Assembly: GCA_039980135.1 (NCBI GenBank)
Contig: JBDXCV010000009.1
Span: 443,854-507,853 of the forward strand
From: Alphaproteobacteria bacterium
Lineage (GTDB): Bacteria > Pseudomonadota > Alphaproteobacteria > UBA6615
DNA length: 64,000 nt
Direction of reading: 5' to 3'
Part shown: in pieces, positions 35,062 to 39,452 of the stretch
Layout of the letters: the number at the start of each line of letters is the position of its first letter
How positions within the stretch are numbered: position 1 is the first letter of the stretch
Notes under the pieces: generated by a model
Seen by the model: the letters and a program-made list of their open reading frames with translations, nothing else
Databases searched by the model: none
What the model was told of the DNA's origin: nothing
Position numbers and translations under genes: made by a program

Positions 35062-35619
35062 ATGACCATTCCGAATATCCTGACCCTGTCTCGCGTCGCG
35101 CTGATCCCCGTGCTCATCGCGATGCTGTTCGCCGACGACCCGGCGCTGCGCTTGTGGAGTTTCGGCTTGTTCGTTGTGCTCGCCGTGACCGACTATCTCG
35201 ACGGCTATCTCGCGCGTGTGCTCGATCAGGCCAGCGCCCTTGGCGCCCTGATGGACCCGATCGCCGACAAGGTGCTGGTCGCCGCACTCATCGTGGGGCT
35301 GGTCGCGCGGGGCGATATCGCCGGCTGGGACGTGGCGGGCGCGATTCTGATTCTCTGCCGGGAGTTCCTGGTGTCCGGGTTGCGCGAATTCCTGGCCCAG
35401 CGTGACCTGCCCTTGCCCGTCACAAAACTCGCCAAATGGAAGACCACGGCCCAGCTCGTGGCCCTGGCGCTTCTGATCCTGGCGCCGCTCGCCGAACCCG
35501 GCCAGCTGCTTGCGATCTCCGCGCTCTGGTGGGTCGCGACGGCGCTGACCCTGCTCACCGGCTTCGACTATACCCGCTCGGCCGTCCGGCATCTCAAACC
35601 CGCCGCGGGAGACATGTGA
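35062..35619 (+). CDS. pgsA: CDP-diacylglycerol-glycerol-3-phosphate 3-phosphatidyltransferase
   Basis: This 185-residue membrane enzyme makes phosphatidylglycerolphosphate from CDP-diacylglycerol and glycerol-3-phosphate. The CDP-alcohol phosphatidyltransferase motif is complete: DYLDGYLAR, G in SALGALMDP and the last D in PIADK. Several hydrophobic helices follow. Its stop codon overlaps the start of mobB by one base (TGATG), so the genes form a coupled operon with uvrC upstream. Confidence 0.95.
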   Translation: MTIPNILTLSRVALIPVLIAMLFADDPALRLWSFGLFVVLAVTDYLDGYLARVLDQASALGALMDPIADKVLVAALIVGLVARGDIAGWDVAGAILILCREFLVSGLREFLAQRDLPLPVTKLAKWKTTAQLVALALLILAPLAEPGQLLAISALWWVATALTLLTGFDYTRSAVRHLKPAAGDM

Positions 35620-36164
35620 TGCGGATCGCCGGAATCGTCGGCTGGCATGACAGCGGCAAGACCACATTGGTGGTCCAGCTGGTCGCCGAACTCACCACGC
35701 GCGGCTATCGCGTCTCGACCGTCAAGCATGCCCATCATGTCTTCGACGTGGACACGCCGGGCAAGGACAGCTGGAAACACCGGGAGTCCGGCGCCACCGA
35801 GGTCATGGTCGGGTCTTCCACCCGCTGGGCGCTGATGCACGAATTGCGCGGCGACGACGAACCCTCGACCCGCGAACTCGTCGCGCGGATGAGCCCGGTG
35901 GATCTGGTGCTGGTCGAGGGATTCAAGCATGAGGATCACGAGAAGATCGAGGTCTACCGGAAAGGTCTCAACGACCCGCCGAACGCCCTGCGCGACCCGA
36001 CGATCATCGCGCTGGCCGACGACGGTACGACAACGGACCTGCCGGACAGGGTCCGGCGCCTCGACGCCGGCGATCCTGTCGCCGTGGCCGACTTCATTGA
36101 GCGTCACTGGGGCCTGACCCGCCCCGGCAAGGACGCCACCAACTCCAGCGCCGGAGCCGCGTGA
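35619..36164 (+). CDS. mobB: molybdopterin-guanine dinucleotide biosynthesis protein B
   Basis: This 181-residue GTP-binding protein has the P-loop GWHDSGKTT close to the N-terminus, followed by VSTVKHAHHVFDVDTPGKDSW and LVEGFKHEDHEKIEVYR, all typical of MobB. It binds GTP and assists MobA in attaching GMP to molybdopterin. The start overlaps the pgsA stop by one base and moeA begins 4 bases after its stop, so it is part of one transcript devoted to molybdenum cofactor assembly. Confidence 0.93.
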   Translation: MRIAGIVGWHDSGKTTLVVQLVAELTTRGYRVSTVKHAHHVFDVDTPGKDSWKHRESGATEVMVGSSTRWALMHELRGDDEPSTRELVARMSPVDLVLVEGFKHEDHEKIEVYRKGLNDPPNALRDPTIIALADDGTTTDLPDRVRRLDAGDPVAVADFIERHWGLTRPGKDATNSSAGAA

Positions 36165-36168
36165 GCCC

Positions 36169-37458
36169 ATGGCGCAACTCTCCGACGATTGCTTCGAGAC
36201 AGACGGCGGCCTGATCGCCGCCGAGGCGGCCCTGGCGCTGCTGGAAGCGCGGCTCGCAACCATCGTCGGTTCCGAACAGACCCCCCTCAACGACGCGGTC
36301 GGACGCATCCTGGCGGAAGACATCGTGTCGGACCGCGCCGTGCCGCCCCACGACAATTCGGCCGTCGACGGATATGCCGTGTATTTCGACGACCTCGACC
36401 CCGACGGCGACACCGGTCTGCCCGTCGCGGGCCGTGTGACGGCGGGACATCCGCTGGACGGGCCCGCGTCACGCGGTACCGCCGTGCGGATCTTCACCGG
36501 TGCGCCGGTACCGGACGGCGAGACAGGACCCGACGGGGGTCCGGACACCGTGCTGATGCAGGAGGATTGCCGCGAAGAGGAGCGCGACGGTCAGGCCGTG
36601 GTCGTGATTCCTGCCGGGATATCGCGCGGCGCGAACCGTCGCGAGCGCGGCGAGGATGTCGCCCCAGGTCAGGTCATCTTGCGCGCAGGCCGGCGGTTGC
36701 GGCCCCAGGATATCGGGCTCGCCGCATCGATCGGTCGCGCGGATCTGCCCGTCTTTGCAAAGCTCCTCGTCGGCGTATTGTCGACCGGCGACGAGGTCTT
36801 CGAGCCGGGCGCCGACGCCCCGGCTGGCGGAATCTACGACGCCAACCGCCATGCGCTCATGGCTGTCCTGTCGGATATGGGTTGCAACGTGCGCGACTAC
36901 GGGATCATCCCCGACGATGCGCGCCGCATTGAAGACACGCTCCGGACCGCCGCCGCGGAGTGCGACGCCATCATATCTTCGGCCGGCATGTCCGTGGGCG
37001 ACGAAGACCATCTCGCGGCCAGCATCGAACGGCTGGGCGCGCTGCATTTCTGGAAGGTCGCGATCAAACCCGGCCGCCCGATCGCGTTCGGACAGATCGG
37101 CGACACGCCCTTCATCGGCCTGCCGGGCAACCCGGCCGCGATGATGGTGACCTTCCTGCGCCTGGCGCGCCCGGCGCTGCTGCGGCTTGGCGGGGCGACG
37201 GAATTGTCGCCGCGCCTGTACCAGGTCCGCGCCGGTTTCAAGCACACCAAGAAGGAAAGACGGCGCGAATATGTGCGCGCCAGGCTGGAGACCGGGGACG
37301 ACGGCGTGCTGGTGGCGCGAAAACACCCGCGCAGCGGCGCGGGTGTGCTGACGTCGATGGTGGAATCCGAGGGGCTGGTTGAATTGCCCGAAGACATGAC
37401 CCAACTCACGCCGGGAACGATGGTATCCTTCCTTCCCTTCACGGAAGTGGCGCGATGA
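36169..37458 (+). CDS. moeA: molybdopterin molybdenumtransferase
   Basis: This 429-residue MoeA inserts molybdate into adenylated molybdopterin. The recognisable segments are PPHDNSAVDGYAV, RIFTGAPVPDG, LSTGDEVFEPG, GGIYDANRHAL, SSAGMSVGDEDH, KPGRPIAFGQIG and GLPGNPAAMMV, covering domains I to IV. It overlaps moaD by 4 bases (ATGA), indicating translational coupling in the operon mobB-moeA-moaD-moaE. Confidence 0.96.
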   Translation: MAQLSDDCFETDGGLIAAEAALALLEARLATIVGSEQTPLNDAVGRILAEDIVSDRAVPPHDNSAVDGYAVYFDDLDPDGDTGLPVAGRVTAGHPLDGPASRGTAVRIFTGAPVPDGETGPDGGPDTVLMQEDCREEERDGQAVVVIPAGISRGANRRERGEDVAPGQVILRAGRRLRPQDIGLAASIGRADLPVFAKLLVGVLSTGDEVFEPGADAPAGGIYDANRHALMAVLSDMGCNVRDYGIIPDDARRIEDTLRTAAAECDAIISSAGMSVGDEDHLAASIERLGALHFWKVAIKPGRPIAFGQIGDTPFIGLPGNPAAMMVTFLRLARPALLRLGGATELSPRLYQVRAGFKHTKKERRREYVRARLETGDDGVLVARKHPRSGAGVLTSMVESEGLVELPEDMTQLTPGTMVSFLPFTEVAR

Positions 37459-37706
37459 AAATTCTCTACTTTGCCTGGATGCGGCAACGGATCGGCATGG
37501 CCACCGAGACCGTTGAGTTGCCCGCGGACGTCGCGACGGTCGACGACCTGATCGACTGGCTGATCGGCCGGGGTGACGGCTATGGCGCGGCCTTCGAGAA
37601 ACGCGACGTGGTTCGCGCCGCCGTAAACCAGGACTATGTCCCGTTCGACCACCCGATCAGCGATTCGGACGAGATCGCGTTCTTTCCCCCGGTCACCGGC
37701 GGCTGA
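37455..37706 (+). CDS. moaD: molybdopterin synthase small (sulfur carrier) subunit
   Basis: This 83-residue ubiquitin-like protein ends in the diagnostic double glycine (FFPPVTGG), whose C-terminal carboxylate is converted to a thiocarboxylate that donates sulfur to precursor Z. KILYFAWMRQRIGM at the N-terminus is typical of alphaproteobacterial MoaD. It is coupled to moeA upstream and lies 13 bases before moaE, its partner subunit. Confidence 0.95.
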   Translation: MKILYFAWMRQRIGMATETVELPADVATVDDLIDWLIGRGDGYGAAFEKRDVVRAAVNQDYVPFDHPISDSDEIAFFPPVTGG

Positions 37707-37719
37707 CGGGCGCGCTGCG

Positions 37720-38199
37720 ATGATCCGCGTGCAACAGGAAGATTTCGATATCGGGGCGGAAGTCGCCGCCCTGACCGCCGGAAAGACGACGATCGGCGGC
37801 GTGGCGACATTTACCGGGCTGGTGCGGGACATGGCCCCTGTCGACGGGGTGGACCAGCCGATCCGTGCCATGACGCTCGAACATTATCCGGGCATGACTG
37901 AGAAGAAGCTAGCCGAGATCGAGGCCGAGGCAAACCGCCGCTGGCCCCTCGACGCGAGCCTGATCATCCATCGCTATGGGCGGCTCGAACCCGGGGACCG
38001 GATTGTTATGGTCGCCTGTGCCTCGGCCCACCGTCAGGCCGCGTTCGATGCCTGCCAGTTCCTGATGGACTGGCTGAAAACGGACGCGCCGTTCTGGAAG
38101 CTGGAAGACACCGACGCCGGCGAGGCGTGGGTCGAGACCCGCGTTACCGACGATGCGGCCGCCGCACGCTGGAAAGAAGGACCGGGGAGCGCCGAATGA
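37720..38199 (+). CDS. moaE: molybdopterin synthase catalytic (large) subunit
   Basis: This 159-residue MoaE carries VATFTGLVRDM, LEHYPGMTEKKL, IHRYGRLEPGD and SAHRQAAFDACQFLMDWLKTDAPFWK, the family blocks including the catalytic lysine near the end. It converts precursor Z to molybdopterin with MoaD. The ATG at 37720 replaces an upstream open extension that overlaps moaD. Its stop codon overlaps the start of the small TGA-containing gene by ATGA, which ties that gene to the same transcript. Confidence 0.95.
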   Translation: MIRVQQEDFDIGAEVAALTAGKTTIGGVATFTGLVRDMAPVDGVDQPIRAMTLEHYPGMTEKKLAEIEAEANRRWPLDASLIIHRYGRLEPGDRIVMVACASAHRQAAFDACQFLMDWLKTDAPFWKLEDTDAGEAWVETRVTDDAAAARWKEGPGSAE

Positions 38200-38408
38200 C
38201 CATCGTTCCGAAATCGACCATCACCTGCCCCCATTGCGGGCATACGCAAACGGAAATCATGCCTGCTGACAATTGACAGGTTTTCTATGAATGTCGCTCG
38301 TGCGGCGACATCCTCAACGCAAAGCCCGGCGATTGCTGTGTGTTTTGCTCATACGGCGACGTGCATTGCCCGTCCGTTCAGGCACGAACCACAGCCCACC
38401 ACCGCTAG
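38196..38408 (+). CDS. GDCCVxC family small protein, probable selenoprotein with in-frame TGA
   Basis: Starting at the ATG that overlaps the moaE stop, the frame reads 26 codons, a TGA at 38274-38276, then 43 more codons to TAG 38406-38408. Both halves are clearly one protein: TITCPHCGHTQTEIMPADN before, QVFYECRSCG and KPGDCCVFCSYGDVHCP after. Relatives as I recall them have cysteine at the TGA position (pattern DACQ-F-YEC), and the GDCCVxC family includes selenoproteins. So TGA probably encodes selenocysteine (residue 27). It has C11/C14 and C33/C36 pairs, suggesting metal or redox chemistry. The total would be 70 residues. A nonsense mutation is the alternative. Confidence 0.75.
38291..38311 (+). 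other. candidate bacterial SECIS stem-loop
   Basis: ATGTCGC (38291-38297) pairs perfectly with GCGACAT (38305-38311) around the loop TCGTGCG. The loop begins 22 bases after the in-frame TGA, within the distance range of bacterial SECIS elements read by SelB, and the stem lies inside the coding frame as bacterial SECIS must. A G is present in the loop at its third position rather than the first two, so the match is good but not exact. Confidence 0.55.
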
Positions 38409-38457: not shown

Positions 38458-39357
38458 CTATTCCGCCGCTGCCGCCGCCGCGCGACCATTCACCAGCGCG
38501 TCGTAATCCTGCATCAGCGTCTTGGTGATTTCGCCTACCGTGAACGTGTGATCGTCTGCGATCCTCGCGATCGGGGTAACCTCGGCCGCAGTTCCGGTAA
38601 CAAACATCTCGGTCGCATCATTGAGTTCCTCGGGCATGATCGCTCGCTCGATGACTTCGTAGCCGCGCTTCTTCGCCAGGCCGATAACCGACCGGCGGGT
38701 GATGCCGTCCAGGAAGCAGTCGGGCGTGGGCGTGTGGATCTTGCCGTCGATGACCAGGAACATGTTGGCGCCCGTGGTCTCGGCGAGCTGTCCGCGCCAG
38801 TCCAGCATGAGGGCATCGGAAAATCCCTTCGCCTCGGCCGCGTGCTTCGACAGGGTGCAGATCATGTAGAGACCCGCCGCCTTCGCACTCACCGGTGCCG
38901 TCCTCGGATCCGGCCGGCGGTAGAGCGCCCAGTCGATCTCGATCCCCTTCATCCGGGCCTCCGGCGTGAAGTAGGACGGCCATTCCCAGACTGCGATCGC
39001 CACCTGGATCTCGCATTTCTGCGCCGACACGCCCATCTGCTCCGGGCCGCGCCAGGCAATCGGGCGGAGATAGGCGTCGGTCAGGCCGGCGCGGCTGAGC
39101 GCCTCGCGGCAGGCATCATCGAGGTCCGCGACCGTGTAGGGCACATCAAAGCCGAGAACCTTTCCCGAATCGTGGAGCCGCTGATTATGGGCGGTGAGCT
39201 CGAAAATCTCGCCATTGTAGGCGCGCATCCCCTCGAATACGGCAGATGCGTAATGCAGCGCATGGTTCAGGACATGCAACTTGGCGTCGGCCCAGGGGAC
39301 AAAGTCACCGTTGAACCAGATCACCCCTTCGCGATTGTCATAGGGAGTTTCGTGCAT
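38458..39357 (-). CDS. ilvE: branched-chain amino acid aminotransferase
   Basis: This 299-residue fold-type IV aminotransferase catalyses the last step of leucine, isoleucine and valine synthesis. The N-terminal block EGVIWFNGDFVPW, HYASAVFEGMRAY, the PLP lysine K159 in SAKAAGLYM, GQLAETTGANMFLV and FVTGTAAEVTPI are all present. I chose the ATG at 39357 (family N-terminus, GAGAG before it); the frame is open to 39444 but would reach the marR operator. It is divergent from a MarR gene with a shared 101-base control region. Confidence 0.93.
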   Translation of the reverse strand: MHETPYDNREGVIWFNGDFVPWADAKLHVLNHALHYASAVFEGMRAYNGEIFELTAHNQRLHDSGKVLGFDVPYTVADLDDACREALSRAGLTDAYLRPIAWRGPEQMGVSAQKCEIQVAIAVWEWPSYFTPEARMKGIEIDWALYRRPDPRTAPVSAKAAGLYMICTLSKHAAEAKGFSDALMLDWRGQLAETTGANMFLVIDGKIHTPTPDCFLDGITRRSVIGLAKKRGYEVIERAIMPEELNDATEMFVTGTAAEVTPIARIADDHTFTVGEITKTLMQDYDALVNGRAAAAAAE

Positions 39358-39452
39358 CTCTCGGCCCTCGAAATATTTGTTCCCTGGAACCAAACCCAGG
39401 GACGAAAAGTTACCCCAAAAGGTTGCGTCAGGTAACATTGCCATTTAATTAA

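Follow-up and report, generated by a model that had tools for sequence, protein, structure and literature searches.

A short gene with an in-frame TGA behind moaE

The window (the whole stretch of 64,000 nucleotides that was analysed) contains a run of four genes on the forward strand, mobB-moeA-moaD-moaE. mobB (35616-36164) matches TIGR00176 at 156.9 bits and moaD (37455-37706), encoding the sulfur carrier of molybdopterin synthase, matches TIGR01682 at 91.5 bits, both above cut-off. moeA (36169-37458) encodes the molybdopterin molybdotransferase; its score against NF007960 is 410.7 bits, below the cut-off of 440, while its domain TIGR00177 is above cut-off. moaE (37720-38199) encodes the catalytic subunit of molybdopterin synthase (NF007959, 163.8 bits, below the cut-off of 175). 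Directly downstream, and last in the same-strand run, is a short gene (38196-38408) predicted to encode a GDCCVxC (GOS_B) selenoprotein of 70 residues. A convergent gene on the reverse strand (38458-39444), encoding a branched-chain amino acid aminotransferase (NF005726, 494.2 bits, above cut-off), bounds the insertion site.

An earlier note on this DNA described a frame that opens at an ATG overlapping the moaE stop, is broken once by a TGA at codon 27, and closes at TAG 38406. The frame reads exactly so: 70 codons and a stop lie between ATG 38196 and TAG 38406-38408, the only in-frame TGA is codon 27 (38274-38276), and moaE stop and start of the short gene share the sequence ATGA (38196-38199). 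The ATGA overlap is identical in all six genomes that carry a TGA form of the gene (see below), suggesting that its translation is coupled to that of moaE. The cysteines listed in the note are likewise all present, with C58 in addition. CPHC (C11 and C14; 38226-38237) and CRSC (C33 and C36; 38292-38303) form the first and second halves of a zinc-ribbon-like site, the former recognised from the frame, the alignment, and weak zinc-ribbon matches, and the latter, which falls in the 5' arm and loop of a hairpin, from comparison of the TGA genes. The third motif, GDCCVFC (C47, C48, and C51; 38328-38348), is the source of the family name. Its seven columns are all invariant in a 50-row alignment; rows beyond that alignment deviate, with D45 in genome G022 and Y50 in G001.

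With the TGA read as Cys, residues 7-63 match NF041374, the "GDCCVxC domain-containing (seleno)protein" model, at 102.3 bits (E 1.2e-29; curated cut-off 40 bits), and the CxxC...C/U...CxxC...GDCCVxC...CP pattern of that model is present. A Pfam profile search of the read-through protein gave no family at or above cut-off. The claim of the earlier note that the family includes selenoproteins agrees with the literature: the available excerpts of PMC2398784 (2008) describe the hypothetical protein GOS_B with 11 selenocysteine (Sec, TGA) and 125 Cys sequences, no functional evidence being found, and the 2026 review PMC13188914, in its available part, equates GOS_B with NF041374. Because Sec members were already listed as GOS_B in 2008, the selenoprotein family is not new, and the gene is a new member of a known one. 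It resembles GOS_B, as far as those excerpts go, in matching the same curated model, in aligning its Sec with the Cys of homologues, and in having a SECIS-like element behind the UGA. GOS_B differs in having been described without its gene neighbourhood, the comparison being made with its description rather than with the reads.

Two further groups of proteins invite comparison. Cys-form GDCCVxC proteins, found in genomes, on plasmids, and in metal-resistance islands, share the same cysteines and are 57-72% identical over the best segment (79 best genome loci other than L035). They differ in having Cys at position 27 and, mostly, a Cys-bearing C-terminal tail, and in occupying varied, partly mobile contexts (merT-merP, merTP, merF, efflux pumps). 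Zinc-ribbon proteins such as PaaD and those of the TFIIS/RPB9 type share the two CxxC knuckles within residues 8-40 and give weak sequence matches; these matches are, however, below curated cut-offs, and a zinc ribbon leaves the GDCCVxC part of the protein unexplained.

Relatives and the residue at codon 27

Of the 24 genomes sampled from the taxonomic family, 14 have an NF041374 match (the order-level sample consists of the identical 24 genomes). Twelve are over cut-off, and six genomes carry the TGA form. In wider samples, which share members, 62 of 385 class-level genomes and 106 of 398 phylum-level genomes have a match; among the matches outside the family with an in-frame stop, none that is readable has TGA at codon 27. 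Of 146 distinct homologous domain sequences, 140 have Cys and six have TGA at site 27, in agreement with the note, which put this TGA where relatives have Cys. The count left residue 27 free but required all four cysteines of the CxxC pairs and most of those in GDCCVxC, which keeps decayed copies out. A sequencing error for TGC or TGT, raised in the note as a possible refutation, is not the cause, since the TGA stands at the same codon in genomes of six species.

In a tree of the distinct sequences (57 columns, U coded as C, generally poorly resolved) the six Sec forms make up a single clade with support of 100/95, recovered in 99% of 200 bootstrap trees. The Sec forms thus appear to be a single clade that arose once and is found only at the moaE site. 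They are also distinguished by their ends: behind the CPS motif, none of the six has a Cys, whereas among 153 locus rows of Cys forms (near-copies included) the tail contains CC in 111, Cys without CC in 22, and no Cys in 20. The CRSC residues of the Sec forms occur in one of 139 Cys-form cores. Full-length Sec and Cys forms are each present in six of the 24 family genomes and no genome has both (G021 also has a short second match); this exclusion may be due to chance at such numbers and is not used as evidence.

Several other copies were flagged for a TGA in the wider samples, and none that is readable is a Sec form. In G144 (L192:1821-2021) a TGA replaces C48 and the genome has no selB over cut-off, so this is probably a broken copy. 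The TGA of G577 stands at the domain end, the copy in G597 (L256:734-904) is strongly decayed with most cysteines lost and its TGA elsewhere, and that of G590 looks like a frame-shifted fragment. The second match of G224 and the match in G509 are short fragments below cut-off in which codon 27 is not readable. Separately, the same GDCCVxC protein, with the same few residues after the stop, is present at loci L041-L044; these come from four genera of Bacteroidota, two being represented by draft metagenome assemblies, and reflect either recent transfer or contamination.

Coding constraint beyond the TGA

Synonymous and nonsynonymous differences (pS and pN) were computed over the six TGA genes. 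In codons 2-26 pS is 0.574 and pN 0.160. In codons 45-62, beyond both the TGA and the hairpin described below, pS is 0.579 against a pN of 0.043, indicating that the second half is kept as protein in this frame. C33, C36, C47, C48, C51, and C58 are retained in all six genomes. In the genome of the window, the first in-frame ATG, GTG, TTG, or CTG after the TGA is a GTG at codon 49, within the GDCCVxC motif, and no start-codon position after the TGA is common to all six TGA genomes. Re-initiation is therefore unlikely.

The SECIS region

Synonymous change is suppressed immediately behind the TGA. In codons 28-39 (38277-38312), the predicted SECIS region, pS is 0.187, compared with 0.600 in codons 2-26 plus 40-62. 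For codons 28-36 the value is 0.183; a control set of six Cys forms from within the taxonomic family has no such drop (0.948 in codons 28-36 and 0.800 in codons 45-62). Among windows that do not span codon 27, the one of lowest pS begins at codon 28 for a width of 12 (42 windows), at codons 28 and 29 (a tie) for a width of 10, at codon 29 for a width of 9, and at codon 32 for a width of 8. The four CRSC codons, TGT CGC TCG TGC, are identical in all six TGA genomes.

The earlier note placed a 7-bp stem-loop at 38291-38311, at a SECIS-like distance from the TGA. Folding confirms a hairpin at these positions, with the loop 22 nt from the UGA; we count eight pairs, the closing pair being U-G, around a 5-nt loop CGUGC (38299-38303) with G at its second position. 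According to the legend of Fig. 2 in PMC13188914, a bacterial SECIS has an apical loop of 3-9 nt on an upper stem of 4-16 bp, a G at loop position 1 or 2, a UGA-to-loop spacing of 16-37 nt, and a minimum free energy (MFE) of at most -7.5 kcal/mol. The hairpin of the window's gene lies within all four constraints as that legend gives them (8 bp with a 5-nt loop, the loop G, 22 nt, and -11.1 kcal/mol). The loop CGUGC is present in all six TGA genomes, and at least four consecutive pairs from the loop in five of them, the exception being G002, where one C-G pair of the stem is disrupted. In a 42-nt window the MFE limit of -7.5 is reached in four of the six and missed by G011 (-5.9) and G002 (-5.8).

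Energy and covariation were rejected as proof of a SECIS. The stem energy of the window's gene is unremarkable on its own (z -0.54 for 47 nt and -2.24 for 32 nt). When ten-codon pieces are set against random synonymous recodings, only one of the six stands out as clearly more stable: the fraction of recodings at least as stable is 0.008 for G021, 0.1495 for G022, 0.157 for G001, 0.2155 for the window's own genome, 0.302 for G002, and 0.581 for G011, leaving the energies unexceptional in five of the six. None of the eight pairs changes on both sides among the six TGA genomes and three never vary, none of the hairpin pairing measures is higher than in shuffles, and an Rfam search matched no family. 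In the window's gene the stem-loop of the note thus fits the published constraints, but it has no compensatory changes, and three of the six genomes have a weaker version. We regard the hairpin shape as likely; that something in the RNA is conserved is indicated by the sequence constraint behind the TGA, rather than by energy or covariation.

Selenocysteine machinery

The window's genome (3.76 Mb, 98.81% complete) encodes all four of selA, selB, selC, and selD, whose absence the note had named as grounds for refutation. The tRNA-Sec scores 71.2 bits and is called by ARAGORN as tRNA-SeC with anticodon tca. Profile searches found selB (467.2 bits), selD (284 bits), and selA (522.6 bits with Pfam and 525.7 bits with NCBIfam), the last overlapping selB, and all of these genes are on one contig. 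The search for selA and selD covered the window's genome. As a control, the named genomes matched each of the three Sec-machinery models searched (14/14), with scores above cut-off in 5, 2, and 2 of them. Because genomes without selB over cut-off, such as G010 (48.9 bits), can also exceed the 47-bit tRNA-Sec cut-off, we relied on scores of at least 70 bits and, for the window's genome, on the anticodon. All six TGA-form genomes have selB over cut-off and a tRNA-Sec of 70.5-73.5 bits. Five of the six family genomes with a full-length Cys form likewise have selB over cut-off (G010 is the exception), so a genome can decode Sec without having the Sec form.

In the window's genome, selD is adjoined by a further probable selenoprotein gene, which contains one in-frame TGA (L201:576-1811). 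It encodes a UPQC motif and resembles PrdB/GrdB, scoring 120.7 bits against PrdB, below the model cut-off of 300. Given this gene, the Sec machinery of the genome probably serves more than one protein. selD itself is fused behind a pyridine-nucleotide oxidoreductase domain (L201:1901-4123, reverse strand), TIGR03169 and TIGR00476 both scoring above their cut-offs.

Decoding of the UGA

The UGA is very probably decoded as Sec, through a SECIS near 38291-38311, because coding constraint continues past the TGA, synonymous change collapses behind it, Cys and TGA exchange at this site, and selB and tRNA-Sec are present. Sec decoding is thus supported computationally by protein constraint past the TGA, RNA constraint behind it, Cys/TGA exchange at codon 27 only, and complete machinery. 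The reading offered in the earlier note stands, the selABCD genes, the TGA in several genomes, and the conservation of codon 27 all speaking for it, and we hold with high confidence that the locus encodes a predicted 70-residue GDCCVxC (GOS_B, NF041374) selenoprotein with Sec27 at UGA 38274. In the proposed mechanism, translation would begin at the start codon overlapping the moaE stop, at the end of the mobB-moeA-moaD-moaE run. At UGA 38274 the ribosome would encounter SelB with Sec-tRNA-Sec, held by the hairpin at 38291-38311, and Sec would be placed at residue 27 in place of termination. We infer that such insertion actually takes place.

Other readings of the TGA account for less of these data. 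Read-through of any kind would produce the downstream coding signal, so the codon might be read as another amino acid, by Trp insertion or near-cognate suppression; nothing else speaks specifically for this, and it is very improbable given that TGA is an ordinary stop next door, ending moaE in all six genomes, that every one of the 140 remaining sequences has Cys at site 27, and that synonymous constraint lies where a SECIS is expected in a genome with complete Sec machinery. It is extremely improbable that the TGA is a plain stop, in which case the locus would be a gene in decay or encode a peptide of 26 residues, and its downstream half would go untranslated. An automatic listing does contain no open reading frame of at least 60 aa in this frame, and decayed family copies exist, as in G597 and G144; against this stand the low pN relative to pS in codons 45-62 and the fixation of the TGA, together with the downstream cysteines, in six of six genomes. 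Stop-start coupling is common in operons, and termination at the TGA followed by re-initiation would yield two proteins. That arrangement is next to inconceivable here, where the first possible start lies inside GDCCVxC and its position is not shared by the six genomes.

Occupancy of the moaE site

All six TGA forms sit between moaE and the branched-chain aminotransferase gene. moaE was searched in the 24 genomes of the taxonomic family and its distance to the aminotransferase gene measured. Six sites are occupied, the Sec gene lying in a gap of 253-287 bases, and 14 are empty, with a gap of 19-100 bases and no insertion. Four are uninformative: G009 has a gap of 1005 bases without a gene match, in G013 the aminotransferase gene is absent from the locus, in G010 moaE lies at a contig end, and G020 has no moaE. 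Three of the empty sites are in genomes that share the genus of the window (G018, G019, and G023), so within the taxonomic family the gene has either been lost more than once or moved. From uvrC to an OmpR-type regulator, gene order is kept among the Sec genomes up to the ends of their contigs, that of G002 beginning within moeA and so limiting its comparison; uvrC and pgsA are the names that we assume for neighbouring genes.

At E 1e-5, none of 152 loci with other forms (some of them near-copies) has a moaE or moaD match, and one has a weak moeA match; the median length of these loci is 4.7 kb, so more distant moaE or moaD genes would escape. The earlier note called the linkage to molybdopterin genes unusual and saw in it a possible redox or metal-sulfur role. 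The linkage is real and was observed in the Sec clade alone; any role in molybdopterin synthesis is hypothetical. A search of the open-access literature, with most subscription papers outside it, gave no report of moaE linkage of a GDCCVxC/GOS_B selenoprotein, and the available portions of PMC12013277 and PMC1088965 contain nothing on the GDCCVxC family. Within the open-access literature, the fixed place beside moaE is the unreported part of the finding.

Predicted function

Clues to function come mainly from the neighbours of the Cys forms. Among the 138 nearest open reading frames of 73 genome loci (near-copies removed, false frames possibly included), the most frequent Pfam match is heavy-metal-associated (HMA, 7), along with MerR (4), SBF (4), MerT (3), and cation efflux (3). 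SBF is a family that includes arsenite exporters. A cluster of open reading frames represented by a MerR regulator is present in 22 of 117 loci; many loci of other forms have no metal gene nearby. GDCCVxC relatives, counted irrespective of residue 27, occur in 347 of 72,556 plasmid records.

We inspected four annotated plasmid stretches, two of them chosen for a mer gene listed under the match. One of these two has merR, merT, and merP followed by the GDCCVxC gene, which overlaps the end of merP (L261:2998-3222); in the other the GDCCVxC gene overlaps the end of merTP (L262:3001-3207). This suggests that on both mer plasmids the GDCCVxC protein is made together with mercury transport proteins. 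On the third stretch a multicopper oxidase and a DsbD-domain protein are encoded near the GDCCVxC gene, and on the fourth an RND efflux permease and a copper-binding protein. With the plasmid records and the Bacteroidota loci, the other members of the family are partly mobile.

The AlphaFold model has a pLDDT of 86.6, a fold search with it gave no match at E 0.001 (best VIA Z 3.3), and in the absence of a strong fold match we drew no function from structure. A sequence match to a solved zinc ribbon, 1qyp, has an E of 0.0045, and the weak sequence matches point to a zinc ribbon.

The mercury and other metal genes beside some Cys forms favour a soft-metal or thiol/selenol role, and soft-metal binding or transfer, or thiol reduction, is the most likely work of the protein. 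We tentatively propose a cytosolic zinc-ribbon-like protein in which Sec27 together with C47, C48, C51, and C58 would form a selenol/thiol site for soft metals (Hg, Cu, and others) or for reduction of a thiol partner, a reading whose chances fall somewhat short of even.

The Sec form might instead serve molybdenum-cofactor synthesis, for example as a sulfur or selenium relay or as a redox guard of MoaD-MoaE. Its fixed place and ATGA overlap behind moaE in six of six genomes, and the complete lack of moaE or moaD at the 152 loci of other forms, would fit such a role, which is also compatible with Sec decoding, our low estimate concerning the function. We nevertheless consider it unlikely, given that moaE adjoins the aminotransferase gene without the Sec gene in 14 of 24 family genomes and that one gain at the moaE site also explains the linkage. 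The Sec gene is not universal with the moaD-moaE pathway, and from the 14 empty sites that pathway can do without the Sec protein; an accessory role in molybdenum-cofactor synthesis may still be compatible with them, and the link to the moa genes may either have a functional meaning or reflect where the gene happened to insert. More doubtful still is a specific version in which the Sec form would be a distinct sub-family dedicated to molybdopterin synthase as its partner. Such a selenol/zinc-ribbon protein would be produced in concert with MoaE through the overlap of start and stop, guarding or feeding thiocarboxylate/dithiolene chemistry and derived from a mobile soft-metal protein after loss of the Cys tail.

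With this locus, an uncharacterised selenoprotein family gains a clear evolutionary test case, in which one Sec clade keeps a fixed place, six sites are occupied and 14 empty within one taxonomic family, and Cys forms provide a matched control. Where hairpin energy and covariation are insufficient, support for a working SECIS comes from the synonymous drop behind the UGA, and this test could be applied to other candidates. The metal-gene neighbours of the Cys forms and the moaE overlap of the Sec form provide two experimentally separable ideas on what the protein may do.
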